Made by a program: the position numbers and the translations under genes
Source of the DNA: Blautia massiliensis (ex Durand et al. 2017)
Lineage (GTDB): Bacteria > Bacillota > Clostridia > Lachnospirales > Lachnospiraceae
DNA length: 64,000 nt
Assembly: GCF_001487165.1 (NCBI RefSeq)
Contig: NZ_LN913006.1
Location: forward strand, 1,177,293-1,241,292
Direction: 5' to 3'
The notes under the pieces: model-generated
What the model was told of the DNA's origin: nothing
Databases searched by the model: none
Seen by the model: the letters and a program-made list of their open reading frames with translations, nothing else
In this document: piece after piece, positions 13,763 to 27,941 of the stretch
Numbering within the stretch: the stretch's first letter is position 1
Layout of the letters: each line of letters starts with the position of its first letter

Positions 13763-13860
13763 GCTGAAAAAGCCGGAAGAAAGGAGAAAGCGATGCAGAT
13801 AAGAGACGGACCAAAAGAAAACTGCAGGGAAAAAAGCGATCATGAAAGGAGAACGTGCAC

Positions 13861-16800
13861 TTGGAAAAAAACTGGAAGAAAAGATGGATGGCGGGTGCGA
13901 TGGCTTTTGCTCTGTGCTGCACTACGCTCTTGCAGACGGGAGCTTCTGCAGTATCCGCCGCTGAGGTGGGAGGCGTTTCCGCACAGAGCGAGACGCAGAT
14001 CGAGGTACAGACAGAAACACAGACAGAAACGCAGACGGAGAAAAGCGAGGAAGAACTGATCGAGGAAACCGTTGCTGATCCGGAACTTGCGCTTATGGTT
14101 ACCGAAGGGGAAGCCTTTGATATCCAGAATGATTTTACAGGACTGAAACTCTCTGAAGGAGACCATGTGGAACTGAAAAAAGCAGCAATGGAAGACGGGA
14201 CTGTATTTGATTATAACCATGCGGGAACCTATAAATGCGTATATCTTGTTACACCCGCATCCGGGGAAGCCTATCTGGTTGCCAGAAACATTACGGTGAC
14301 ACCAAGGGAAGCAGAAACAGACGGATCCAATGGCGGTCAGGAACAGGAAAGCGGCGATGACGAACCGGAGGCAGACCCCGTCCTCCCGACCATAAGCCCG
14401 GAAGATGCCCCGGAAACCCTGGAAGAGCCGGAAGAAACGGAGGAGCCAGAAGAAGAGGAAGCAGAAGAATTTTCCGATGAGGAACCAGAGGATGGAAGCC
14501 ATCAGGTTGACATCGTACAGGGAAATGAATTCAATATTGAACTGGACCACGAGGACGGACGTTACCAGACGGGGGAGACGGTCAACTTTTCCGGTGATAT
14601 CCCGCAGGGAAGCCTGATCGCAGTGGGAACAAGTCTTGTCGAAGCAAACCAGACAGAGAATACCGAAGATCTTCTGTATGCAGAAGTAAGCTACGATGAG
14701 GGAACAAATTCCTTCAGCTTTGAGATGCCGGAAGATGATGTTGCATTAAGTGTGGTATATGACCAGGCTGAGGGCGGTATTAGTACCATGGCAGCTTCCG
14801 ATGGAGACTTGTGGGATGATTCAACAGACATTGAAGCTAATACCTATTACTATTATTCAGATGGAAAACTGCATCCTTTTGATTCTGTTATGGGACAGGG
14901 CGGAAATGATTCCTATAAGTATATCCGTTACAAAGCAGGCGGAAAGACTTATACCGTCTATGCATACTGCATGCAGCACAGTAAACAGTCCCCGCCAAGT
15001 GGAACGACTTATAAAAATATGGTCGAACTGGATGAGGGCGGCGATGACCGTTATTTAAGGAAGGCCATGTTTTACGGATATGGCGGTCCCGGATGGGGCG
15101 GCACATTCAACGGCTATAATATCAAATCCATCATGGAAAAATACGGCTGTTCCTCCGAGACCCGTGCAATGCAGCATTATCTGGTCGATTATTTATATGA
15201 CGGGGAATCCGGATTTGGAGGATCCCTTTCGACAACTGCCAAAAACATGTTAAAAGAGATCAAGGCAGCCCTTGCAAAGATGCCGGATCCAACGACCATG
15301 GAGCTGACACCTGGGCTCAGTGCTTCTGCAAATGAAAACCAGAGCCCGACCTTCACATGGAAGGCAAACGCAGCTTTTGTGATCACGATCCATCTGGAAA
15401 ACGGGGTCTCCCTTGTAAATGAGACGACAGGAAAAACCGGGACCGGAAATGTGAGCGTAAAGGGCGGTGAAAAATTCCATCTGGAAGCAACCACCCAGAA
15501 TATTGGAAGCCTGAAAGGAAAATATGCGATCACATCCAACTATCCGCTTAATTTCCATGCCATGCTCTTAAAGCTGGCGAACAGCCAGGATATCGGCTTT
15601 GGATATTATACCGATACACTGGAGCTGAATCTGGAGGTAGACTGGCCGGATGAAGCAACGGTCAAGATCATCAAAAAAGATAAGGGAAGCAACGCGCTCC
15701 TTGCAGGTGCCGTTTACGGCATCTATGCAGATGAAGCCTGCACGAAACTTATCAAAAAAATGCCGGCAACAAATGCAAAAGGGGAATCCGAAGTAAAGAT
15801 CACCAAAACACAGGATACCGTTTACCTTCGTGAAATCTCAGGCCCATCCGGATATGTGCTGGATACGAAAGCCTATGGGGTAAAACTGGTCGTGGGGCAG
15901 ACCGCTTCCAAGAACTTAACGGATAAAGAGCAAAAAGGTGCACTCACCATTTATAAAGAAGGAGAAGTGCTTACTGGAGCGACCGTCACGGAAGATGGTG
16001 TGACCTTTGCCTACGAAAAACGGAAATTGAAAGGAGCCGTTTACAGTGTTTATGCAGGTGCAGATATCAAGGCGGCAGATGGCACCCTCATCTATAAAAA
16101 AGGTGCACTTGTCAAGGATAATCTGGTTACCGGAGATGACGGAAGCGTTACGTTAAAGGATCTCTATCTTGGCACCTACACAGTAACCGAGACGAAAGCT
16201 CCGGATAATTATGTATGCAAAGGAGAGTCTAAGACTGTTGAGCTTGTGTATGCAGGCCAGACCGTAGAAGTGCAGACTGTCAGTGCAACATTTTTAAATG
16301 AACGCCAGAAGGCTGCAGTCCGTGTGGAAAAGCAGGACGAAGAGACAAAAAATCCGCTCTCCGGAGGCATCTACGGGCTGTATGCAGCAGAAGATATCAA
16401 AGTTGATGGTAAGACCGTTGTTCCCAAAGGAACCCTGATCGAAAAAGCAACGACCGGAGCCGATGGAAAAGCTTCTTATAAAGCGGAACTTCCGATTAAT
16501 TACAGCTACAGCATCCGGGAGATCCAGGCACCGGAACTTTACCTTAGAAACAGTGAGGATACTTACACCTTCACTTTTAAGTTCACCAATGATAAGGAAG
16601 AAAAGGTAAACTTTAGCCATACCTTTACAAATAAGCGTGTAAATGCAACAATCGACCTGGTAAAAGAAGACAGCGAGACAGGAAACAGCGCACAGGGAGA
16701 TGCCGTATTTGAAGGAGCCATTTACGGGCTCTATGCAAGGGAAGACATTAACCATCCGGATGGCAGGAGCGGAGTCCTTTATAAAAAGGACGAACAGGTA

Positions 16801-19800
16801 GCTACCCTGACGACCGATAAAGAGGGAAAAGCAAGCGTAAGCAACCTGTATCTTGGAAAGTATTATTTGAAGGAGATCACGCCTCCAGTAGGTTATCTTC
16901 TGGACGAAGAGGAGCATGATGTAAACTGTAACTACGAAGGAGACCAGGTAGAGACGGTAAAACGAAATACCGTTTCCAAAGAAGACGTGATCAAACAGCC
17001 ATTCCAGTTGATTAAAGCAGCGGATAATGATAAGACCGATGCGGACCTTTTAAAAGGTGCCGGATTCTCTGCTTATCTGATCAGCAGCCTGACTGTAAAG
17101 GACGATGGAAGCTATGACTTTACAAATGCGACCCCGATCGTTCTTACGGAAGATGGAAAAACAGAAATGTTTACCGATGAACGCGGCTATGCGTGCAGCA
17201 TCCCGATTCCTTATGGACGCTACATTGTCCGTGAGACCACAACACCGCATAATTTCATGCCGGTAGATGATTTTATCGTAACCGTAACCGAGAACAGCAG
17301 CACACCGCAGGTATGGAGAGTCCTTTTGGACGATGAGTTCAAAGCAAAGCTTAAGATCGTGAAACAGGATGATGAGACCAAACAGCCGGTCCTCCTTGCC
17401 AATACAGAATTCAAAGTGTACGACCTGGATGCGAAAAAGTACGTGGAACAGGTAACGACCTATCCAAATACGGTTGTCCATAAATCCTATTTTACGGACG
17501 AAAATGGTTACCTGATTCTTCCGGAATCCTTAAAATGCGGAAATTACAGGATTGAGGAAGTGAGAGCGCCTGATGGCTACACCCAGAATACCCAGTATGT
17601 GGAGATCAAAGTTGATAAGAATACAGCTTATCAGATGGATTCCGTCAGCGGGGATGCCATCATTACCGTGACCTATGAAAACCATCCGGTCAAGGGCAAA
17701 CTGGTGATCCATAAATCCGGTGAAACCTTAAAATCCTTTAAAAAGGATTTTGTATACGAAGAAGCTTCCCTGGAAGGGGCAGAATTTGAAATCTACGCAG
17801 CAGAAGATATTTTCACACCGGATCATCAGGTGGACGAGCAGGGAAACCGTCACGTGATCTATGCAAAGGATACCCTGGTAAAAACAGTGACCACTAATAA
17901 AAATGGGGAAGCTGTTATCAAAGACCTTCCGCTTGGAAAATACCGTGTGAAAGAAACAAAAGCACCGGCCGGATTTGTCTTAAATCCAGACAGTCAGGAA
18001 GTAGCCTTTATCTATAAGGATCAGAACACACCGGAGATCGAAGAAAAACTGGAATTTTCCAATGAACGCCAGAAAGTAGAGCTGAGTGTGGAAAAACGGG
18101 ATGCTGAGACCGGAAAGGCTTTAAAAGGTGCAACCTTTGGATTATACAATAAAGAAGCAATTTCTTCCGGCGACAAGGTGATTGTAAAAGCAGATACACT
18201 GCTTCAGGAGATCACAAGCAACGAAAAAGGTAAGGCAGCGTTTACGCTGGATCTTCCGCTTGGCAGATACTATGTGAAAGAGCTGCAGGCACCGGCGGGT
18301 TATGTATCTTCTGATGAGATCCTGGAATTTGATGCCACATACCAGGGCCAGGACGTAAAAACGATCAAATTAAAATCCGTGAAGAAAAACCAGCCGACAA
18401 CGGTAGAAGTAACAAAAGCAGATATCACGACCGGAACAGAACTTGACGGGGCTTCCATGAGTGTACTGGATAAGGATGGCAACGTGATCGATTCCTGGAC
18501 ATCCGTAAAGGATTCCCCACATGTGATCAAGCGACTTCAGGTTGGAAAAACTTACATTCTGCGTGAAGAGCTTGCACCATATGGCTACTTACGTGCAACA
18601 GACGTAGAGTTTACGATCTCTGATACTGCAGAAGTACAGAAAGTCAAAATGGAAGATGAAGTCCCGGTAGCAAGACTTCTGGTAAACAAGAAAGGGGAAT
18701 TCTTAGACAGCGTATCCCTTCTTGACAATGCAAAAGGCATGATCGAGCACCTGTTCAACTATGTGACCGGAAACCTGACTGATGTAACCTTCAATGTTTA
18801 CGCGGCAGAAGCCATCCGTGCAGCAGACGGGGTAAGTGCAGATTATTATGCGGCAGATGAACTGGTCGGCTCCATTACAACAGATGGAAATGGTATCGCC
18901 CAGATGGATAACCTCCCGCTTGGACGTTATTACATCGTGGAAAAAGAGACCGCACATGGCTACGTTCTGGATAATGAACCAAGATATGTGGATCTTACAT
19001 ACCGTGACCAGGATACACCTCTGGTTACTTATAGTGCCGACTGGCAGAATGCGCGCCAGAGGGTACAGGTGGAAGTCCTGAAAAAAGAAAAGGACAGTGA
19101 CAAAGTACTTTCCGGGGCAATCTTTGGCCTCTATGCAGCAGACGACATCGTATCTTCAAAAGGAAAAGTACTCCTTGCGAAAGACACTCTGATCGAACTG
19201 AAGACCACAGATGAGGATGGAAAGATCCAGTTTGTTGCAGATCTCCCGATTGACAGCAGGTACTACATTAAGGAACTTGCCGCCCCGGATGGCTATGTGA
19301 CAGACCAGGAACCGCAGGAATTCACTTTTGAGTACCAGGGCAGTGGAACCAGTGTTGCAGAGTATGCGTTCACCTTTGAAGATGAACAGACTACGGTAGA
19401 ACTTTCCAAAGCAGACCTGACGGACAAAAAAGAACTTCCGGGAGCATCCTTAAAGGTAACAGATGAGGGTGGAAATACGGTGGATGAATGGGTATCCAAA
19501 GAGGAAGCACATATCATCAAGGGCCTTATCGTAGGAAAGAAATACAAGATGACAGAAACAAAGCCGGCAGATGGTTATGTGACTGCGGAAAGTATTGAAT
19601 TTACCGTCGAAAACACAAAAGAAGTACAGAAACACCAGATGCTTGATGATGTGACCAAAGTGGAAATCAGCAAGAAAGACATTACGGATTCCAGTGAGGT
19701 ACCGGGAGCAAAACTGATCATCCTGGATAAAGATGGAAAGAAAGTTGAAAGCTGGACGTCCACGGATAAACCGCATATGGTCGAAAAACTTCCGGTAGGC

Positions 19801-20379
19801 GAATATACCCTTCGTGAAGAGCAGGCTCCGGATGGATACCTCATTGCGGAAGATGTGAAATTTACGGTAAAAGATACCGGAAAAGTCCAGAAAGTCAAAA
19901 TGAAGGACGCACATCCATATGGAAAACTGGTCATCAAAAAGACCGATTCCACCAGTAAGGCAGCCCTTTCAGGAGCAGAATTTGAACTGCGTGAAAAGGA
20001 AAGCGGAAAAGTCGTAGAAAAACTGGTAACGGATAAGACCGGAACAGCGACAAGCGGCAAGCTTCCGATTGCTACTTATAAAAATGGAAAAGTAGAGAAA
20101 ACCGTGGAATATATCCTGGTAGAGACCAAAGCACCAAATGGTTATGAATTAAGCAGCAAAAAAGAAGAGATCCGCTTTGAATACAAAGACGGAAAAACCA
20201 AGGTGATCGAGATCGTAAAAGAGATCAAAAACACCAAATCCCCTTCCGGTAGCACACCGACAGGAAACAGCCCGAAAACAGGGGACAGCACCAACATCTG
20301 GCTTCCGATCCTTCTGGCAGTCCTTTCTGCCTGCGGCATTGGCGGCGTGATCTGGTATAAGAAGAAAAAAGGAAATTAA
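13861..20379 (+). CDS. Giant thioester/SpaA-repeat cell-wall adhesin (VaFE-type), NSPKTG-anchored
   Basis: The protein has about 2172 residues. A signal peptide of ~35 residues (basic start, FALCCTTLL core, AXA site) is followed by an acidic stalk (to ~220) and a thioester-like domain with AYCMQHS (Cys ~370) and RAMQHYLVDY (Gln ~438). I count 14 SpaA/Cna-B-like repeats from ~600 onward, each starting with a V-x-K-x-D-type strand and closing with E-x-AP-x-GY; three of them (9th, 12th, 13th) are a shorter ~66-residue type. The C-terminus has NSPKTGD, a hydrophobic span and KKKK. TTG 13861 gives 9-nt spacing to AAAGGAG; GTG 13855 is the alternative. The adjacent sortase B gene probably anchors it. 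Such proteins mediate covalent attachment to host or cell surfaces. Confidence 0.9.
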   Translation: MEKNWKKRWMAGAMAFALCCTTLLQTGASAVSAAEVGGVSAQSETQIEVQTETQTETQTEKSEEELIEETVADPELALMVTEGEAFDIQNDFTGLKLSEGDHVELKKAAMEDGTVFDYNHAGTYKCVYLVTPASGEAYLVARNITVTPREAETDGSNGGQEQESGDDEPEADPVLPTISPEDAPETLEEPEETEEPEEEEAEEFSDEEPEDGSHQVDIVQGNEFNIELDHEDGRYQTGETVNFSGDIPQGSLIAVGTSLVEANQTENTEDLLYAEVSYDEGTNSFSFEMPEDDVALSVVYDQAEGGISTMAASDGDLWDDSTDIEANTYYYYSDGKLHPFDSVMGQGGNDSYKYIRYKAGGKTYTVYAYCMQHSKQSPPSGTTYKNMVELDEGGDDRYLRKAMFYGYGGPGWGGTFNGYNIKSIMEKYGCSSETRAMQHYLVDYLYDGESGFGGSLSTTAKNMLKEIKAALAKMPDPTTMELTPGLSASANENQSPTFTWKANAAFVITIHLENGVSLVNETTGKTGTGNVSVKGGEKFHLEATTQNIGSLKGKYAITSNYPLNFHAMLLKLANSQDIGFGYYTDTLELNLEVDWPDEATVKIIKKDKGSNALLAGAVYGIYADEACTKLIKKMPATNAKGESEVKITKTQDTVYLREISGPSGYVLDTKAYGVKLVVGQTASKNLTDKEQKGALTIYKEGEVLTGATVTEDGVTFAYEKRKLKGAVYSVYAGADIKAADGTLIYKKGALVKDNLVTGDDGSVTLKDLYLGTYTVTETKAPDNYVCKGESKTVELVYAGQTVEVQTVSATFLNERQKAAVRVEKQDEETKNPLSGGIYGLYAAEDIKVDGKTVVPKGTLIEKATTGADGKASYKAELPINYSYSIREIQAPELYLRNSEDTYTFTFKFTNDKEEKVNFSHTFTNKRVNATIDLVKEDSETGNSAQGDAVFEGAIYGLYAREDINHPDGRSGVLYKKDEQVATLTTDKEGKASVSNLYLGKYYLKEITPPVGYLLDEEEHDVNCNYEGDQVETVKRNTVSKEDVIKQPFQLIKAADNDKTDADLLKGAGFSAYLISSLTVKDDGSYDFTNATPIVLTEDGKTEMFTDERGYACSIPIPYGRYIVRETTTPHNFMPVDDFIVTVTENSSTPQVWRVLLDDEFKAKLKIVKQDDETKQPVLLANTEFKVYDLDAKKYVEQVTTYPNTVVHKSYFTDENGYLILPESLKCGNYRIEEVRAPDGYTQNTQYVEIKVDKNTAYQMDSVSGDAIITVTYENHPVKGKLVIHKSGETLKSFKKDFVYEEASLEGAEFEIYAAEDIFTPDHQVDEQGNRHVIYAKDTLVKTVTTNKNGEAVIKDLPLGKYRVKETKAPAGFVLNPDSQEVAFIYKDQNTPEIEEKLEFSNERQKVELSVEKRDAETGKALKGATFGLYNKEAISSGDKVIVKADTLLQEITSNEKGKAAFTLDLPLGRYYVKELQAPAGYVSSDEILEFDATYQGQDVKTIKLKSVKKNQPTTVEVTKADITTGTELDGASMSVLDKDGNVIDSWTSVKDSPHVIKRLQVGKTYILREELAPYGYLRATDVEFTISDTAEVQKVKMEDEVPVARLLVNKKGEFLDSVSLLDNAKGMIEHLFNYVTGNLTDVTFNVYAAEAIRAADGVSADYYAADELVGSITTDGNGIAQMDNLPLGRYYIVEKETAHGYVLDNEPRYVDLTYRDQDTPLVTYSADWQNARQRVQVEVLKKEKDSDKVLSGAIFGLYAADDIVSSKGKVLLAKDTLIELKTTDEDGKIQFVADLPIDSRYYIKELAAPDGYVTDQEPQEFTFEYQGSGTSVAEYAFTFEDEQTTVELSKADLTDKKELPGASLKVTDEGGNTVDEWVSKEEAHIIKGLIVGKKYKMTETKPADGYVTAESIEFTVENTKEVQKHQMLDDVTKVEISKKDITDSSEVPGAKLIILDKDGKKVESWTSTDKPHMVEKLPVGEYTLREEQAPDGYLIAEDVKFTVKDTGKVQKVKMKDAHPYGKLVIKKTDSTSKAALSGAEFELREKESGKVVEKLVTDKTGTATSGKLPIATYKNGKVEKTVEYILVETKAPNGYELSSKKEEIRFEYKDGKTKVIEIVKEIKNTKSPSGSTPTGNSPKTGDSTNIWLPILLAVLSACGIGGVIWYKKKKGN

Positions 20380-20447
20380 GGAATACGGTTCAGGGCTGCT
20401 CGATTTACCGGCAGCCCTTTTTCCAGGAAGAATAATCGGAGGTTTGT

Positions 20448-21233
20448 ATGAGATACATAAAAGAAATCATGATCGTGGCAGTCTGCCTGATGGTACTCAG
20501 TTTTTGCGTATGTACCGGTTTTGGCATTTACTTTATGTACCGGGAAGGTGTGCAGGAATATGAAGACCTGCGTACATACGTCAAGGAAACAGATGAGGAT
20601 GACCACACAGAAGGAACAGACGGAAGCGATGGGAAACAGACCGTGGTTGATTTTAAGGCATTAAAAAAGATCAATCCGGATATCGTTGCATGGATCCGGA
20701 TCCCAGATACCAGCATTGATTACCCGGTAGTTCAGGGAAACGATGACTCCTATTACCTGACACATACTTTTAAGAAGACAGAACATGTGGCAGGGGCCAT
20801 TTTCCTGGATTCCGATAACAATGCCGATTTTTCTGATGACAAGAACATCATTTATGGTCACAATATGAAAGATGGCAGCATGTTCCGCGGACTTCGAAAT
20901 TTCCTTGGCGATAAATTTTTAAAAGAACACCATATCCTCTATCTGTATCTTCCGGATGAAGGGGTATGGATCTTTGTGATCGTAAAATGCGAGTATACAC
21001 CGGCAGATGGAGATGCTTTTTTACTTGGAACGCAGGAAGAAGTCCCGACGCTTCTGCTTTCCACCTGTGGAACAGATGCCTCCAAACGTCTGGTCATATG
21101 GTGTGAAAGGCAGGAAGAGAAAGGTGGGCAGATAGAATATTCTGACGAGGAAGCAGAAGTACAGGAAGCTACGGATGATCTTGCTTTCTTAGATGGGGAG
21201 TTTGTAGAAAACGAAACCCATGATTTTATTTAA
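20448..21233 (+). CDS. Class B sortase
   Basis: The protein (261 aa) has an N-terminal membrane anchor (residues 5-30), then a sortase fold with IDYPVVQG, YGHNM (His138), LLLSTCG (Cys207) and KRLVIW (Arg214). This is the class B set of catalytic residues. The C-terminal 45 residues are acidic and may be a flexible tail. It lies 68 nt after the adhesin gene with GGAGG at a good distance and is most likely dedicated to the NSPKTG sorting signal. It acts on the outer face of the membrane. Confidence 0.92.
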   Translation: MRYIKEIMIVAVCLMVLSFCVCTGFGIYFMYREGVQEYEDLRTYVKETDEDDHTEGTDGSDGKQTVVDFKALKKINPDIVAWIRIPDTSIDYPVVQGNDDSYYLTHTFKKTEHVAGAIFLDSDNNADFSDDKNIIYGHNMKDGSMFRGLRNFLGDKFLKEHHILYLYLPDEGVWIFVIVKCEYTPADGDAFLLGTQEEVPTLLLSTCGTDASKRLVIWCERQEEKGGQIEYSDEEAEVQEATDDLAFLDGEFVENETHDFI

Positions 21234-21566: not shown

Positions 21567-21620
21567 TTGACAATTGTATTCTACAGTTGTAGAATACAAT
21601 TAACTTCTACAGATGTAGAA
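21567..21620 (+). promoter_or_regulatory. Promoter with two BlaI-type operators
   Basis: TTGACA (21567-21572) and TAGAAT (21590-21595) are 17 nt apart. A perfect 28-nt palindrome (21573-21600; 13-bp arms, core CTACAGTTGTAG) fills the spacer and covers the -10 box. A second palindrome TTCTACA-GA-TGTAGAA lies at 21605-21620. TACA/TGTA dyads are the known binding sites of BlaI/MecI repressors, and a BlaI-family gene lies 1 kb downstream. Binding would block RNA polymerase directly. Confidence 0.85.
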
Positions 21621-21644
21621 AATAAAATTCTAGGAGAATCCACG

Positions 21645-22547
21645 ATGAAGACAAAATTTATGACACTTATGACGGTAGCAACACTTGGGATTTTTTCAGC
21701 TGCAACGGTTATGGCAGCAGGAAATAACGATTTCTATACACAGCCGCCGGCTGGATCTGAATGGGAAAAAGCAGATACGGAAGGTACCTATGCAAGCTAT
21801 ACGAACGGAAATGATTATGTAAATATCTATAAATATTCACTGGAGGATGTCAAAACAGGGATTGCCAAATGCAATGACACATACGATGCCTGCTATCAGA
21901 CAATTTATTCAGAGGGAAACAGCCTGTATATGGCAGTGGGATATGCAAAAGATGCAGATGACATCAGTGACGTCAGAAAATTTGTAGAATATATTTCGTA
22001 TCCTGGAAATCCTTCACTTACCAGACAGGAGAATGAAAACCAGACCGATGATTCTTCTGATGATTCTGATAAGGCAACTACAGATACTGCCAGTCAGAAG
22101 TCAGGAGGAGATTCAGATTCCTCCGATACAGAAGAAAATGCTTCTGCAAAATCCTCGGACAGCAATGATGATTCCGATATCCTTTCTACCTCACCAATGA
22201 CATTAGTTGACAGTGATGGAAATACCATTGAGATTAATTACATTCTTCACAAAGATTATTCTTGTGAATATCGTGGAGATGATGGAATGAACTATACCGA
22301 TAATGGGGATGAGACTTATACCGACGAAAATGGAAATACCTACTCAGCTCTGAATGATGATACTCATCATCTGGGACATACGTTGGAACAGCATGACCTT
22401 CAGGATGCAAACGGTAATACTGTGACGGTTACGGAAACTACAAATGGTGATTATTATTTCCAGGACGAAAATGGTACAGGATTTACGGACAATGGAGACG
22501 GGACATGGAGTGATGAAAATGGCAGCAGTTATACAGAAATAGACTGA
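21645..22547 (+). CDS. Secreted protein sharing a C-terminal domain with the BlaR1-like sensor
   Basis: The protein (300 aa) starts with a signal peptide (MKTKFMTLMTVATLGIFSAA, cleavage after VMAA). A folded domain of ~100 residues follows, then a Ser/Asp-rich linker (residues ~125-185), then a ~95-residue domain with repeated T-D-N-G-D-x-T-W/Y-x-D-E-N-G units. The same domain ends the M56 sensor encoded at 23076-24824. ATG 21645 has TAGGAG upstream and follows two BlaI-type operators. No enzyme motif is seen. It is probably exported and induced through the BlaI/BlaR1-like pair. Confidence 0.78.
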   Translation: MKTKFMTLMTVATLGIFSAATVMAAGNNDFYTQPPAGSEWEKADTEGTYASYTNGNDYVNIYKYSLEDVKTGIAKCNDTYDACYQTIYSEGNSLYMAVGYAKDADDISDVRKFVEYISYPGNPSLTRQENENQTDDSSDDSDKATTDTASQKSGGDSDSSDTEENASAKSSDSNDDSDILSTSPMTLVDSDGNTIEINYILHKDYSCEYRGDDGMNYTDNGDETYTDENGNTYSALNDDTHHLGHTLEQHDLQDANGNTVTVTETTNGDYYFQDENGTGFTDNGDGTWSDENGSSYTEID

Positions 22548-22570
22548 TAGTGGTCAGTAGCTGCAGGAAT

Positions 22571-22607
22571 GGCAAGGGCATTTGCAAATTGTGCAAAAGC
22601 CCTTGCC
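22571..22607 (+). terminator. Terminator after the secreted-protein gene
   Basis: GGCAAGGGC and GCCCTTGCC form a perfect 9-bp stem, with a short T-rich tail. Its 3' arm overlaps the probable -35 box of the blaI-like gene. Confidence 0.6.
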
Positions 22608-22652
22608 ATTTCCGTGAACCGTGGTAAAATAGAGTTATTCCTACATTTGTAG
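22603..22652 (+). promoter_or_regulatory. Promoter and BlaI-type operator of the repressor/sensor operon
   Basis: TTGCCA (22603-22608) and TAAAAT (22625-22630) form a plausible promoter. CTACA-TT-TGTAG (22641-22652) is a third copy of the same dyad found upstream of the secreted-protein gene, placed at the transcription start, so the repressor should control its own operon. Confidence 0.75.
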
Positions 22653-22679
22653 AAAATATGTAACAGGAGGTATGAAAAA

Positions 22680-23069
22680 GTGAAAAAAACTTACCAGAGA
22701 CTTCCGGAATCAGAGCTGGATATTATGCTCGTTCTTTGGAATAATACTCCGCCGATGACCAGACCGGAGATTGAGAAAGTGATCACTATGAAGAAAAAAC
22801 TTGCATCAACAACAATTTTGTCATTGCTGACCAGATTGGAGAACAAAAATTTCGTGGAAGTGACGAAACAGGGAAAAATGAATCTGTATACACCCCTGGT
22901 TTCGCAGTCAGATTATCAGGCACATGAAAGCCAGAGTGTTCTTGAGAAACTTTATGGGAATTCACTAAAAAAGTTTGTAACTTCACTTTATCATGGAAAG
23001 AAGATCAGCTCGGAAGAAGTCCAGGATCTCAGTGAATTTCTTAAGAACCTGGAGGACAGGGAGGAATAG
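22680..23069 (+). CDS. BlaI/MecI/CopY family transcriptional repressor
   Basis: The protein (129 aa, family-typical) is a winged helix with LPESELDIMLVLWN at the N-terminus and recognition segment LASTTILSLLTRLENKNFV, then a helical dimerisation tail. GTG 22680 is used because CAGGAGGT lies 9 nt upstream; ATG 22672 runs into a stop after three codons. BlaI-type repressors are inactivated by cleavage triggered by the cognate BlaR1 sensor, which here follows 6 nt downstream. Targets inferred from operators: its own operon and the secreted protein at 21645. Confidence 0.92.
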   Translation: MKKTYQRLPESELDIMLVLWNNTPPMTRPEIEKVITMKKKLASTTILSLLTRLENKNFVEVTKQGKMNLYTPLVSQSDYQAHESQSVLEKLYGNSLKKFVTSLYHGKKISSEEVQDLSEFLKNLEDREE

Positions 23070-23075
23070 CGAATT

Positions 23076-24824
23076 ATGGAGGTTTTCATTCTACACATTC
23101 TGAAACTGAATGTTATTGCAGCAGTAGTAATTTTACTGGTAAAAGTGCTTGCGACTCTGTTTAAAGGACGTGTATCAGCGAGATGGAAGTACCTTATCTG
23201 GCTGTTGATTACGATAAGCCTTTGTGTTCCGGTGCGCCTTCCGGCGAATCTGGCACTGGTGGATTTCAAAGTACTTAGAAGCAGTCAACAGAATACGCAA
23301 AGCCCGAAGATAACGGATTACGCAGTCAGACCAGAGGAAAGTCAGAAGATAACAGAAAACGTATCATCTGCGAGCAAAGACATGAAAAATCTGACAGAAA
23401 TCCCGGAACAAAAGAGAACTGTCAGGTACGAATCAGATAAATGGCTGGGAATTGTGGCTTTGATTTTTGCTGCTGTCTGGCTGAGCGTAGCGGTACTTAA
23501 ACTGACGGGAGAATTGCTGGCATATTATTTTTCTATAAGGAATCTGGAACGGATGAGTCTGCAGGTAAGTGATACGGTGAGTATTCAGATGTACCGTGCA
23601 GCGTGTCAAAAGAAGCACGTACGCAGAATACCGGAACTCAGGCAAAACGCAGGTCTTACCACACCGCTTCTTGCAGGACTTTTACATACAAAATTGTATC
23701 TACCAGCAACCGGGTATTCAGCAGAAGAAAGAAAACTTATCTTTTACCATGAACTTACACATTATTGCCATCGGGATCTCTGGTATAAGATGCTCCTTCG
23801 AATCTGTGCATCGATATACTGGTTCAATCCCTTTCTTCTTATCATGCTGAAAGAAGCGGATAAGGATATTGAGAATCTGTGTGATACAGCAGTTGTTCGC
23901 AGAGTTAATAAAAAGGAACATAAATTATATCGACAGCTGCTTCTCAGGACAGTAGCCATGGAAAATCAGATTCCATATGTGACAGCAAGTCTTAATGACA
24001 GCGAAATGGTGTTTAAAGATCGGATTCTGTATATGGTGAACATTCGGAAACTCCGCAAAGGAATTCTTCCGGGAATTCTTGTGACGCTGCTGCTTGCAGG
24101 CGGTAATCTGGTATTTAATGTCTCTGCCGGGACAGATACAGTTTCAGTAGAGACGGAGAAGTCTGGTATTGAAAAAAATGCAGATCCAGAGAAAAATAAT
24201 GTACCGGATTATGCACCATTTTCTGAAATGGTAACTATGCAGAAAGCTGCTGAAACCCAGGACGAAGGAGGAGTGACAGAGAATACAGATACAGAGGATT
24301 CTGTAGACGAAGAGGAAAAAGCAGATGCGGAAACAAACGATGAACCTGCCATGGAAAACAGCGGACAGGTAAGTGAAACGACCGATGATGGAATTACCTC
24401 TGACAACAACGGGTCTGTTTCATCTTATGAAAATCTGCCAGCAGGCGTACCATATACCAGTGGATTCAGTACTACTTCCGGTGTAGCATCAATTGTAGCA
24501 CCGGGTGGAGGAGATGAAGAATCCAGAGTTCTTTACGATAACGGAGATGGGACCTATTCTGATTATTATGGGAGCCGATACAGTTATCAGGGAGATGGAA
24601 ACTGGGCAGATGCCAATGGAAATTCATATCGTACCTGGAATGACGAAGGTTATCATTTCGGAAACCAACTGGAACAGCATGAACTCCAGGGCAGTAACGG
24701 TACTGTTAATGTAATAGAAACAACAAACGGAGATTATTATTATTGTGACGCAGATGGGGTCGGATACACAGACAATGGTGACGGCACCTGGACGGATGAG
24801 AATGGGAACATCTATACAGAATAA
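23076..24824 (+). CDS. BlaR1-like M56 sensor metalloprotease with non-beta-lactam C-terminal domain
   Basis: The protein (582 aa) has three N-terminal membrane spans, a cytoplasmic M56 peptidase domain with the zinc motif HELTH (residues 225-229) and downstream Asp/Glu ligand region DKDIENLCD, a fourth span near residue 335 (ILVTLLLAGGNLVF), a Glu-rich linker and a C-terminal ~100-residue domain of NGDGTY/TDENG repeats. In true BlaR1 the outer domain is a penicillin-binding sensor; that is absent here. The outer domain instead matches the C-terminus of the secreted protein at 21645. Ligand unknown. Confidence 0.88.
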   Translation: MEVFILHILKLNVIAAVVILLVKVLATLFKGRVSARWKYLIWLLITISLCVPVRLPANLALVDFKVLRSSQQNTQSPKITDYAVRPEESQKITENVSSASKDMKNLTEIPEQKRTVRYESDKWLGIVALIFAAVWLSVAVLKLTGELLAYYFSIRNLERMSLQVSDTVSIQMYRAACQKKHVRRIPELRQNAGLTTPLLAGLLHTKLYLPATGYSAEERKLIFYHELTHYCHRDLWYKMLLRICASIYWFNPFLLIMLKEADKDIENLCDTAVVRRVNKKEHKLYRQLLLRTVAMENQIPYVTASLNDSEMVFKDRILYMVNIRKLRKGILPGILVTLLLAGGNLVFNVSAGTDTVSVETEKSGIEKNADPEKNNVPDYAPFSEMVTMQKAAETQDEGGVTENTDTEDSVDEEEKADAETNDEPAMENSGQVSETTDDGITSDNNGSVSSYENLPAGVPYTSGFSTTSGVASIVAPGGGDEESRVLYDNGDGTYSDYYGSRYSYQGDGNWADANGNSYRTWNDEGYHFGNQLEQHELQGSNGTVNVIETTNGDYYYCDADGVGYTDNGDGTWTDENGNIYTE

Positions 24825-24881
24825 AGGATTTGTCCGATCGATGCATATTCAAATGATATTATTTCAGAAGAGGTATTGTAT

Positions 24882-25748
24882 ATGACCTACAATTTAGTAG
24901 AAATTCAGAAAAGACAGGAATCTACTGACAAATTTGTTCAGAAAGTTGGTAAAACTTTATGGCATTACACTTCTTTTCCAGCCTTGGATGGAATTTTAAG
25001 GAAAAAAAAGATTTGGTTTGGCAGCGCAACGAATGTGAATGATGCAAAAGAAGTGATTGGGTTTATTGATAACCTGAAGCAGAACATTGAGAACGGTCTT
25101 ACCCAAAACAATATAAAACCCAAATGTGATGTTGATAAAATATTTAAAGAAATATATGACAGAACATCGCAAAAACACCTTTTTATGTTCTGTTTGTCAC
25201 AGGCATTAGACGATGCAGCTCAATGGGACCGCTATGCCGATCATGGACGTGGTGTTGCAATAGAATTCAATACCGAAGCATTGCACAACCTGTTATATTA
25301 TCATGGGATGATCATTGGCGAACAGTATTATACTCAGGAGACCAGGGATCATGAATTATACAAATTATTGTCTTCATATATTTCCACTGGAATTCTGGAA
25401 GGATTTTCCAACTTAGATGGATTCATTGATAATTTAGCATTATGTGCCCTTATTCACAAACATCCTACATTTACTGCTGAAAAGGAAATCCGAATCGCAC
25501 CATATTTTGTAACGGACAACGATCCTCATATCGAATACAAAACATTCAATATAATAAAAGAGTTCTACATTTTAGATTTACAAAAAGTCTTAGAAACAGA
25601 AAATATGCACAGGGAAGATATTATCAATTCAATTATTATCGGACCACGTTCATCCCAGAATCCAAAAGATTTGGAAAACTACTGCAGACATCTTGGGTTG
25701 CATAAACTGGCTCAAAATATAAAAGTATCTGATTGTCCATTGCGTTAA
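24882..25748 (+). CDS. DUF2971 domain protein
   Basis: The protein (288 aa) shows the DUF2971 pattern: LWHYTSFPALDGIL near the N-terminus, IWFGSATNVNDAKE, FCLSQALDDAAQWDRYAD and GVAIEFN. The family is widespread in bacteria and often near defence or mobile genes; its activity is not established. ATG 24882 follows AGAAGAGG. Codon use is more AT-rich than in the upstream sensor gene. It has its own terminator. Confidence 0.85.
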   Translation: MTYNLVEIQKRQESTDKFVQKVGKTLWHYTSFPALDGILRKKKIWFGSATNVNDAKEVIGFIDNLKQNIENGLTQNNIKPKCDVDKIFKEIYDRTSQKHLFMFCLSQALDDAAQWDRYADHGRGVAIEFNTEALHNLLYYHGMIIGEQYYTQETRDHELYKLLSSYISTGILEGFSNLDGFIDNLALCALIHKHPTFTAEKEIRIAPYFVTDNDPHIEYKTFNIIKEFYILDLQKVLETENMHREDIINSIIIGPRSSQNPKDLENYCRHLGLHKLAQNIKVSDCPLR

Positions 25749-26022: not shown

Positions 26023-27465
26023 TTATTTGCGAATATCTACTAGTCCCTTTTTCAGTATATATTCAGAGAACTCATATGAAGCTCCGTCTCCAGTCACATT
26101 CAGATACAGATTTTTGAGGTCGCTTTCATTTACGATCCAGGCCATGTTCAGCTGTACACTTTCGCCTGGTTTTATAGAGGAAATGTAGTTTCCACCATTG
26201 CCATAATTTTCAGAGACACTATAATATACCATTCCTCCAGTCTTTGCCACGCCGTCCCAGCTAATGTAGTCATAGCCATCGCCGGCCTGTTCTGTTGGAA
26301 TGTAAAGCTGTACTTTTCCATTTTCCTTAGTCAGGGTCAGTAAAGCACCAAGATAAAGCATATGGTCGATTTCCTCATTTGAATGATTGGTATAGGTAAC
26401 TGTAACATAGACCAGTTTCTGATTCACTTCCTCTGACTTCACAATTTCATCCAGGGAATCGATTCCGTCGCCAGATTTCACATAATTCAATGTGTTTGTA
26501 GATAGCTTTCCATCAGCATCAATGGCTTCCGCCCATTCTTGTGGTATTTTGTCCGGATCGAGAAGCTGAAGATCATCAGAAATTTGAACAGAATCTACCT
26601 TTGCAGAAATCGTTTTTTCCAGATATTCACCATTTGTGTTTTCACCAATCACATCCAGATCAAAGGTGTCACCAATTTGGTAAATGGGTAGTTTTTTCTC
26701 ATTTACAGAAGTACTTATTTCATCATTATCATCTTCTGTCTTTTCAGATATCATCTCTCCGCTCCATGTAGGCAATCCGGCGGTCTTTACCATAGTCGTG
26801 TTTCCCTCAATCACCAGATTTTCTGCAACTTTTATGGCTTCATCCTTTGACACATCATCTCCGATGTAGATCATAAGCACACGATATAAATCCGGGCAGA
26901 CAAGATAAATTCTCTGGTTAAGAGCCCCGTTTTCGGTAATGCTATTATATTTGAGATATATCCCCTGGTATTTTCCAAATGTACGCTCTTCACTATCAAT
27001 AACATTCTGATCCTGTACTACCTGTCCCAGATCATTTTTATCCAACAGGACAAATGAAAAACTGAACCCGCCAGTCATGCCATGCTCAGGATATTGGAGA
27101 TGGTACTCGTCAATCCAGCTCATGCCCTCCGGAACATATTTAGCAGACAGATCTACCTCTGGGACCTCATCTGGAAGCACGGTCTTCTTTGCTGCATCAC
27201 CAGCATCAATTTTGACTGAAACACCATAAGAACCCTGTTTTTCCAAAAACCAGTGATACAGATTTACTCCTGCATATACTGCCGTGGAAACTGCCAGTGC
27301 ACACGCAGCTGCCACTGCGGCAACTTTCGGAGCTGTCCATCGTTTTCTTCTTCGCAGATTCGCCACTTTATTATCCGCCAGCTGCTTTGCTACCTCATTT
27401 TGAATCATATTATGGATAAAATCCGGTGTTTCGGGAATATCGTTTTTCATATCTTCTAATCTCAT
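26023..27465 (-). CDS. Anti-sigma-factor-like membrane protein
   Basis: The protein (480 aa) has a short cytoplasmic N-terminus (~45 residues ending LRRRKRW), one membrane span near residues 47-66 (VAAVAAACALAVSTAVYAG) and a large outer domain. The outer part begins with a DUF4367-like segment (YVPEGMSWIDEY) and continues with an immunoglobulin-like domain. Its start overlaps the stop of the ECF sigma gene by 4 nt, the standard arrangement for a sigma factor and its membrane anti-sigma. It presumably holds the sigma factor until an envelope signal arrives. Confidence 0.78.
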   Translation of the reverse strand: MRLEDMKNDIPETPDFIHNMIQNEVAKQLADNKVANLRRRKRWTAPKVAAVAAACALAVSTAVYAGVNLYHWFLEKQGSYGVSVKIDAGDAAKKTVLPDEVPEVDLSAKYVPEGMSWIDEYHLQYPEHGMTGGFSFSFVLLDKNDLGQVVQDQNVIDSEERTFGKYQGIYLKYNSITENGALNQRIYLVCPDLYRVLMIYIGDDVSKDEAIKVAENLVIEGNTTMVKTAGLPTWSGEMISEKTEDDNDEISTSVNEKKLPIYQIGDTFDLDVIGENTNGEYLEKTISAKVDSVQISDDLQLLDPDKIPQEWAEAIDADGKLSTNTLNYVKSGDGIDSLDEIVKSEEVNQKLVYVTVTYTNHSNEEIDHMLYLGALLTLTKENGKVQLYIPTEQAGDGYDYISWDGVAKTGGMVYYSVSENYGNGGNYISSIKPGESVQLNMAWIVNESDLKNLYLNVTGDGASYEFSEYILKKGLVDIRK

Positions 27466-27941
27466 ATTGACACCTCCTGTAATTCCTGCCTTAATTTTCC
27501 TCTTGCCCTTGCAAGTCTCTTTTGAACGGCACCTTCCGATATTTCAAGGATCTGGGCGATTTCTTTTACACTGAAATCTTCTATATAGTATAGAATAACG
27601 GGTAAACGCAGTTCCTCTTTTAAGGAATTTACGGCTGTATACAATTCACTGTAATTCTTTGTTTTTTCTGATTCCGGTTCCTGTCTGTCAGCCAGATTTT
27701 CCAATGGGATAAATTTACTGGATTTACGCACAAGGCTGTAACATTCGTTGATTAAGATACGGATTAACCAGGTCCGGGCATAGTTATCGTTTTTTAATGT
27801 GCCGACGTTGGAAAAAGCCTTCACAATTGTTTCTTGAATAGCATCTGCACAGTCATAGTCACTAAATAAAATTGTTTTTGCAGTTGAGTATAATTGTCTT
27901 TCTGAATCTAGGATCAGAGATCCAAGTTGTTCCTTTGTCAT
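27462..27941 (-). CDS. ECF-type RNA polymerase sigma factor
   Basis: The protein (159 aa) shows region 2 (YDCADAIQETIVKAF, then YARTWLIRILINECYSL) and region 4 (LRLPVILYYIEDFSVKEIAQIL, GAVQKRLARARGKL), separated by a short linker. This is the SigV/SigW-like short form. It is translationally coupled to the downstream anti-sigma gene. Regulated targets cannot be told from this window beyond probable autoregulation. Confidence 0.92.
   Translation of the reverse strand: MTKEQLGSLILDSERQLYSTAKTILFSDYDCADAIQETIVKAFSNVGTLKNDNYARTWLIRILINECYSLVRKSSKFIPLENLADRQEPESEKTKNYSELYTAVNSLKEELRLPVILYYIEDFSVKEIAQILEISEGAVQKRLARARGKLRQELQEVSI

Follow-up and report, generated by a model that had tools for sequence, protein, structure and literature searches.

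The stretch of the Blautia massiliensis genome analyzed here (64,000 nucleotides of contig NZ_LN913006.1, assembly GCF_001487165.1, positions 1,177,293 to 1,241,292; the whole of it is referred to as the window) carries three adjacent plus-strand genes, which encode a secreted protein (SEC), a BlaI-family repressor, and an M56 sensor-protease whose C-terminal domain is the same as that of SEC. The interpretation favored here, with a probability of roughly 50%, is that these genes form a BlaI/M56 circuit in which one ligand-recognition domain is common to the sensor and the product under its control, with that product closing a feedback loop.

The initial annotation of this DNA had described the three genes as neighbors, the sensor as devoid of a penicillin-binding domain, and its C-terminal domain as shared with SEC, and these descriptions hold. 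SEC (300 aa; 21645 to 22547) starts with a signal-peptide-like N-terminus, recognized by eye, and matches zero families at E ≤ 1 in Pfam and NCBIfam scans. The repressor (129 aa; 22680 to 23069, with a GTG start) matches PF03965 (E = 2e-26), and the sensor (582 aa; 23076 to 24824), whose gene starts 6 nt past the end of the BlaI gene, matches PF05569 (M56) over residues 8 to 319 (E = 2.1e-45), both domains scoring far above the respective Pfam cutoffs. The HELTH motif of the sensor occupies residues 225 to 229, and its residues H225, E226, and H229 are invariant in the sensor alignment. PF05569 is the sole Pfam family found in the sensor at E ≤ 1, the transpeptidase family PF00905 being absent at this threshold, and the blaR1_generic model covers the sensor over model positions 6 to 304 of 585 only. 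The 3.7-Mb genome holds two further M56 loci (L001 and L002), the former with a tail that looks penicillin-binding-like by eye.

The C-termini of SEC and the sensor align significantly (107 bits, E = 2e-30, 41% identity over 178 aa), the leading part of the alignment being a Ser/Asp-rich linker; for the tail proper (SEC residues 214 to 298), the identity to the sensor tail is 50.6% over 85 aa in near-identical relatives. In SEC, a PsbP/RseB-like domain (residues ~31 to 121) and a disordered linker (residues 125 to 175) precede the shared domain, termed tail A (residues 179 to 300; 22179 to 22544, plus strand), which is predicted to be all-beta, with two ~50-aa repeats seen by eye and pLDDT values of 77 to 96 from residue 181 onwards. 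In the sensor, tail A (approximately residues 470 to 582; 24483 to 24821, plus strand) is carried on a disordered linker of ~125 residues (342 to 468).

The recurrence of the triplet in relatives, on which the earlier interpretation had staked itself, was borne out. A sensor-profile search (E ≤ 1e-60) detected 16 loci in 15 of the 64 genomes of the genus; SEC adjoins the sensor at 13 of these loci, and the SEC and sensor tails match at 12 of the 13, the match in G051 being taken from the near-identity of that genome to the window. A tail A profile built from 15 SEC and sensor tails matched 19 of 145 genomes at E ≤ 0.001, and all 27 matches with E < 1e-30 fall in SEC or the sensor. The weaker matches fall in the second SEC repeat, in other proteins, or in fragments; in the stretches with weak matches from G111, G002, G024, and G038, BLAST found no M56 gene. 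A distant relative (L070) has blaI, the sensor, and two operator-like boxes, and neither SEC nor tail A was seen there.

The tails may be exchangeable in both genes. In G027, SEC and the sensor both end in a different domain, tail B (46.6% identity over 133 aa, E = 2e-31; masking of low-complexity segments gives 75% over 63 aa), and this SEC keeps a related N-domain (37% identity over 82 aa). The sensor of G027 (L053, 2121 to 3962) also has a bacterial SH3 domain (PF08239, E = 2.5e-11) between the membrane part and tail B. At the G058:C54 and G022 loci, the sensor tail is 78 to 81% identical to the tail of its own SEC versus 51 to 55% in comparisons with nine other sensor tails, so it has likely been replaced by a SEC-type tail. 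As neighboring copies recombine readily, and the SEC and sensor tails of G058:C54 and G022 are 81 to 85% identical in DNA, tail sharing might have arisen by chance when neighboring genes were duplicated locally or recombined, with no functional link. This explanation, the least probable of those considered, does not sit well with SEC and sensor tails that have stayed at 44 to 52% identity at each of the remaining tail A loci examined, nor with G027, where both genes carry tail B.

Tail B was found in 13 of the 145 genomes, where it usually forms the end of a protein of ~200 to 300 aa. The five such proteins printed from outside the triplet loci (L094, L095, L096, L098, and L106) all have a lipobox by eye, and BLAST found no M56 gene in the tail B stretches outside the triplet loci. 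Proteins ending in tail B are encoded at L094 to L101 in eight Blautia genomes, and L094 resembles L095 by eye. The tail B neighbors in L096, which by size had been considered a BceAB-type transporter, turned out by Pfam to be formate transporter, topoisomerase, hexapeptide, and GGGtGRT proteins. Small lipobox-bearing proteins with the same ending, together with the position of the tails at the extreme C-terminus, after long disordered linkers, in both SEC and the sensor, are what would be seen if the tail were a shared address rather than a sensor, that is, a wall- or surface-binding module co-locating the two proteins. The restriction of tail A to SEC and the sensor at E < 1e-30 among the 145 genomes argues against such a role, which appears decidedly improbable.

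The repressor sites are predicted from TACA-NN-TGTA, the consensus of BlaI-type operators. The SEC promoter, likewise predicted from consensus (plus strand, 21567 to 21595), consists of TTGACA (21567 to 21572) and TAGAAT (21590 to 21595) with a 17-nt spacing, matching the consensus at 11 of 12 positions. Between its -35 and -10 elements lies the putative operator O1 (21573 to 21600), a 28-nt near-palindrome with the core CTACAGTTGTAG (21581 to 21592); its description as perfect had to be corrected, since the 13-bp arms flank a non-palindromic 2-nt center, while the claim of BlaI-type dyads at this promoter was sustained. The predicted operators O2 (CTACAGATGTAG, 21607 to 21618) and O3 (CTACATTTGTAG, 22641 to 22652, upstream of blaI) supply the other two exact CTACANNTGTAG boxes of the window, which has no further ones even at 1 mismatch. 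At least three such boxes were found in 7 of 100 shuffled versions of the 64-kb window. The whole genome has 5 exact CTACANNTGTAG sites, 3 of them at the triplet, versus 4 sites for the reversed control pattern; TTCTACANNTGTAGAA at ≤ 1 mismatch gives 8 sites (3 at the triplet, 3 upstream of asnB, and 2 elsewhere, each within an open reading frame [ORF]), and at ≤ 2 mismatches it gives 31 sites versus 28 for the reversed control. The motif per se is thus not over-represented, and the case for operators therefore rests on arrays of boxes. All 14 SEC promoters checked in relatives have at least two TACANNTGTA boxes at ≤ 1 mismatch, at least one of them exact, within 160 nt, and the position equivalent to O1 is kept; upstream of blaI, an exact box is found at 10 of 14 loci and a near box at 1, with none at the remaining 3 (L042, L044, and L052).

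The asnB gene, located ~80 kb from the triplet and preceded by a three-box array, is likely a second target of the BlaI circuit, judging from its upstream sequence. Its product matches the glutamine-hydrolyzing asparagine synthase family (TIGR01536, E = 3.5e-156), an assignment compatible with either asparagine synthesis or amidation. Among the 22 asnB-like places detected in 21 of the 64 genomes, three-box arrays are found in G000, G001, G004, G015, and G051, every one of which has the triplet; the other 17 loci have zero boxes at ≤ 2 mismatches in the fetched stretches, several of which are short or cut. G045, with a close asnB (82%) and no triplet, has no box, as expected. The G041 sensor gene is followed on the same strand, after ~180 nt, by asnB; the two may be co-regulated, although a terminator-like hairpin (by eye) intervenes and a box is absent. 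According to PMC8554201, enzymes of the AsnB type carry out peptidoglycan amidation in Listeria and other bacteria, and the AsnB of genomes with the triplet may do the same.

The structure models provide a fold for the sensor core and hints for the other domains. In the sensor model (mean pLDDT 60.5, with residues 342 to 468 disordered), residues 4 to 314 match the fold of Staphylococcus aureus BlaR1 (8exs; Z = 21.2, rmsd 4.0, 251 residues aligned). In the SEC model (mean pLDDT 69.5, pTM 0.40, with the 125-175 linker disordered), the N-domain retrieves MucB (6in8; Z = 6.2, rmsd 3.3, 82 residues aligned), MTC28 (Z = 5.9), PsbP (Z = 5.8), and RseB (Z = 5.1). MucB and RseB restrain regulated proteolysis. 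Such a domain could dock onto the sensor, or like tails, which match at 12 of 13 loci, could pair with each other, in which case SEC would regulate the sensor directly, reporting its own level or bound ligand; this is an unlikely alternative, as Z scores below 8 may mean merely a common arrangement.

For the tails, the fold comparisons come from the full-length SEC and sensor models. The first half of the SEC tail retrieves phage gp54 (Z = 5.0) and 3f6z (Z = 4.9, rmsd 3.1, 63 residues aligned), followed by the further lysozyme-inhibitor-like entries 3oe3 (4.6), 4mis (4.5), 6gq4 (4.4), and 4mir (4.3); the best Foldseek E value for the whole SEC model is 0.2. The sensor tail retrieves mixed small beta folds (gp54 at Z = 4.6, tudor, and spindlin), with PliC only at Z = 3.1 and 6gq4, an entry linked to a lysozyme role, at 2.9. 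All tail Z scores are low, and the gp54 matches of both tails fit a shared fold obtained in two separate predictions. When the tail A profile was run against PDB sequences, the matches were limited to 9loc_A (E = 0.001) and 4ijy_A (E = 0.042), both taken as chance. Lysozyme was considered as the ligand because of the weak MliC/PliC matches (5 of the 6 SEC tail matches at Z ≥ 4.3) and of the lysozyme sensitivity of Listeria upon asnB loss, reported in PMC8554201, which also reports that in Clostridioides difficile lysozyme resistance is unaffected. The candidate was rejected in view of the mixed matches of the sensor tail and of the Pfam scan of 10 SEC proteins, in which the MliC family was not found at E ≤ 1; PF20316 (DUF6612) was weakly matched by 2 of these 10 (best E = 0.0095).

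Similar pairing was found outside Blautia. The survey covered 120 M56 stretches found with PF05569 in the order (80 stretches, taken as they came among the matches listed, with G000 and G004 omitted and two neighboring pairs merged) and in the phylum (the best 40 of 50 matches). Being the strongest PF05569 matches with frames of ~480 aa or more, they favor long tails but were not selected for tail content. BLAST comparison of the sensor tails, each against the remaining ORFs in the stretch it came from, revealed a tail-sharing neighbor at 11 of the 120 loci at E < 1e-3 (mean of 0.92 and maximum of 5 in 5000 permutations of tails among loci) and at 8 loci at 1e-10 (permuted mean 0.48, maximum 4 in 5000). 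One of the 11, L184, with M56 tail fragments seen by eye, probably represents decay, leaving 10 of 120. Five are of the classical beta-lactam kind: in L108 and L129 the partner is a class D/transpeptidase protein whose domain is 36 to 48% identical to that of the sensor, and in L112, L165, and L178 a BlaR1-type tail weakly matches penicillin-binding proteins (PBPs; E about 1e-4). The other five partners are a PepSY protein in L174 (80% identity over 84 aa), a protein with a domain that has no name in L147 (43% over 169 aa), NAGPA phosphodiester glycosidases in L239 and L244 (59 to 62%), and a domain joined to Amidase_6 in L251 (53% over 150 aa). As L239 and L244 belong to one genus group, these amount to four independent non-beta-lactam cases. 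The NAGPA partners have a membrane-anchor-like N-terminus (by eye); on the sensor side, the Pfam assignment of the tail to NAGPA is that of L239. In both loci, an enzyme-family domain has possibly been reused as a receptor. The sharing of enzyme-family domains (NAGPA, transpeptidase) by several pairs would be odd for a mere anchor, and it makes ligand sharing a simpler explanation than direct regulation of the sensor by its partner. Transpeptidase- or class D-like tails were detected, with a rough 4-sequence profile, in only 12 of the 120 sensors, so most of the surveyed M56 sensors probably sense compounds other than beta-lactams.

Among 20 named loci fetched separately from the 120 (L070 to L089), 6 have a partner: L073 and L075 (near-copies of each other; 87% over 190 aa) and L083 (81% over 318 aa) in Paenibacillus, and L076 of Hominifimenecus and the Eubacterium metagenome-assembled genomes (MAGs) L084 and L085 (27 to 32%); Pfam scans of these six partners found zero families at E ≤ 0.01. 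Boxes were checked at 11 partner loci outside Blautia, leaving out L108, L129, and the PBP loci. L073 and L075 repeat the Blautia layout, with the partner-blaI-M56 order and paired boxes before the partner, on an unrelated tail; at the other nine, the partner adjoins the M56 gene on the same strand, and a box precedes blaI in L083, L147, L239, and L244, with a near box in L085. The tail fragments in L251 and L184 would suit a recombinational by-product; the repetition of layout and boxes with an unrelated domain in Paenibacillus and the excess of partners over permutation speak against it. The same pairing with unrelated outer domains in other bacteria suggests a more general mode of building sensors.

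Several observations weigh against the proposed shared-ligand circuit. By BLAST, 109 of the 120 surveyed M56 loci have no tail-sharing neighbor; no box at ≤ 1 mismatch was found within 200 nt of blaI, the partner, or the M56 gene in L084, L174, and L251, nor before blaI or the partner in L076. In Blautia, G058:C41 and G037 lack SEC, both being rearranged with BlaI altered or gone, and G053 has SEC and the sensor on the ends of two separate contigs, where their tails match too. G020 breaks the rule, with tail B on SEC and tail A on the sensor, unmatched tails that would also suit recombination; its sensor core and that of G027 are sisters in the tree (support 100/100), which fits a tail swap in the order product first, sensor second, the alternative being a reversal in G020. 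The tree places the G058:C54 and G022 sensor tails among SEC tails generally, not beside their own SEC, and topologies constrained to group them with their own SEC or with the remaining sensor tails give borderline AU tests (p = 0.0645 and 0.067). The five asnB arrays sit in near-identical relatives and are worth little more than one observation. Finally, direct coupling in the style of BlaR1, whose sensor domain spans residues 330 to 585 in the available text of PMC5957439, is doubtful because the ~125-residue disordered linker precedes the sensor tail. Among the rearranged loci, the G058 copy without SEC has a BlaI frame whose N-terminus, by eye, resembles that of a response regulator (L042, 4430 to 4996), and G037 has two copies (L103 and L104) of a mini-ORF that fuses two separate short sensor pieces, in the vicinity of genes that look transposase-like by eye; an interrupted asnB is also found near the L104 copy.

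In the proposed circuit, BlaI would occupy O1 and O2 across the SEC promoter and O3 before blaI-M56; binding of an extracellular ligand to the sensor tail A would activate the M56 domain, leading to cleavage of BlaI. SEC would then be made and exported, the closest relatives also making AsnB, which may amidate peptidoglycan, and SEC, with the same tail, would sequester or act on the ligand, so that the signal drops and the switch resets. Because the sensor and the effector must see the same ligand, a change of target would require that the tail be exchanged in both genes or that the sensor take up an effector-type tail. The earlier suggestion that both proteins bind the same wall component stands in part: a common component is the best-supported reading, and wall material is a candidate for it, a wall-attacking agent or a wall component being the likeliest ligand class. 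A broader generalization, at somewhat less than even odds, is that M56 sensors often arise when the domain with which their exported product handles its ligand is copied into the sensor. BlaR1 and class D beta-lactamases would be one case of such a rule, which in Blautia would drive the matched swap of tail A for tail B, product first and sensor second. If so, the target and ligand class of an uncharacterized M56 sensor could be read from its outer domain, orphan sensors would become testable, and the modular parts could serve for new extracellular biosensors.

As for the surroundings of the triplet, a stem-loop 3' of SEC (AATGGCAAGGGC...GCCCTTGCCATT, 22568 to 22610), read from the sequence, is a possible terminator without a T run and was not flagged by a terminator scan. 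Directly 3' of the sensor gene is a DUF2971 protein gene (24876 to 25748; PF11185, E = 9e-9; listed with a TTG start), and further downstream, on the minus strand (26023 to 27941), a sigma-factor-like gene overlaps that of a 480-aa membrane protein, anti-sigma-like by eye. A repetitive surface protein of 2174 aa with a C-terminal PKTGD...membrane-anchor end by eye (13855 to 21233) is adjoined by a class B sortase (TIGR03064, E = 2.7e-46).

Among known systems, the MliC/PliC lysozyme inhibitors share with SEC a fold lead only, through the alignment of the first half of its tail with 3f6z and similar entries; they differ in that the SEC tail gives weak Z scores, a Foldseek E value of 0.2 at best, and no MliC among the Pfam matches. 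The cyanobacterial PetP/PetR pair, which controls the copper-dependent plastocyanin/cytochrome c6 switch, likewise combines a BlaR1-family protease and a BlaI-family regulator in a non-beta-lactam role (PMC7896320), but its protease activity is copper-dependent, and the available text of this commentary mentions no domain shared with the target. The closest likeness is to BlaR1/BlaI and MecR1/MecI: an M56 domain with HExxH and a matching fold, an adjacent BlaI-family repressor, and TACANNTGTA-type boxes at the target and at its own promoter. The Blautia system differs from both in that the sensor has, instead of a transpeptidase-like domain, a beta tail without a name on its long disordered linker, which suggests coupling different from that of BlaR1, and in that the target is secreted SEC plus, probably, asnB. 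As in BlaR1, whose sensor domain is a structural homolog of class D beta-lactamases in the available text of PMC5957439, the sensor domain is homologous to a ligand-handling protein; this precedent, together with the BlaR1 proteolysis scheme outlined in the available part of PMC7593790, makes ligand sharing the leading model. It also shows, as do the L108 and L129 pairs, that the initial annotation went too far in knowing of no BlaR1 system built in this way. Searches of the open-access literature found no description of M56 sensors that share a tail with their targets. The logic is that of BlaR1 itself, generalized; what is new here is that the domains have no relation to beta-lactams, that they are swapped in a matched way, and that the pairing recurs more widely, and, if the generalization is true, BlaR1 becomes one instance of a wider design.

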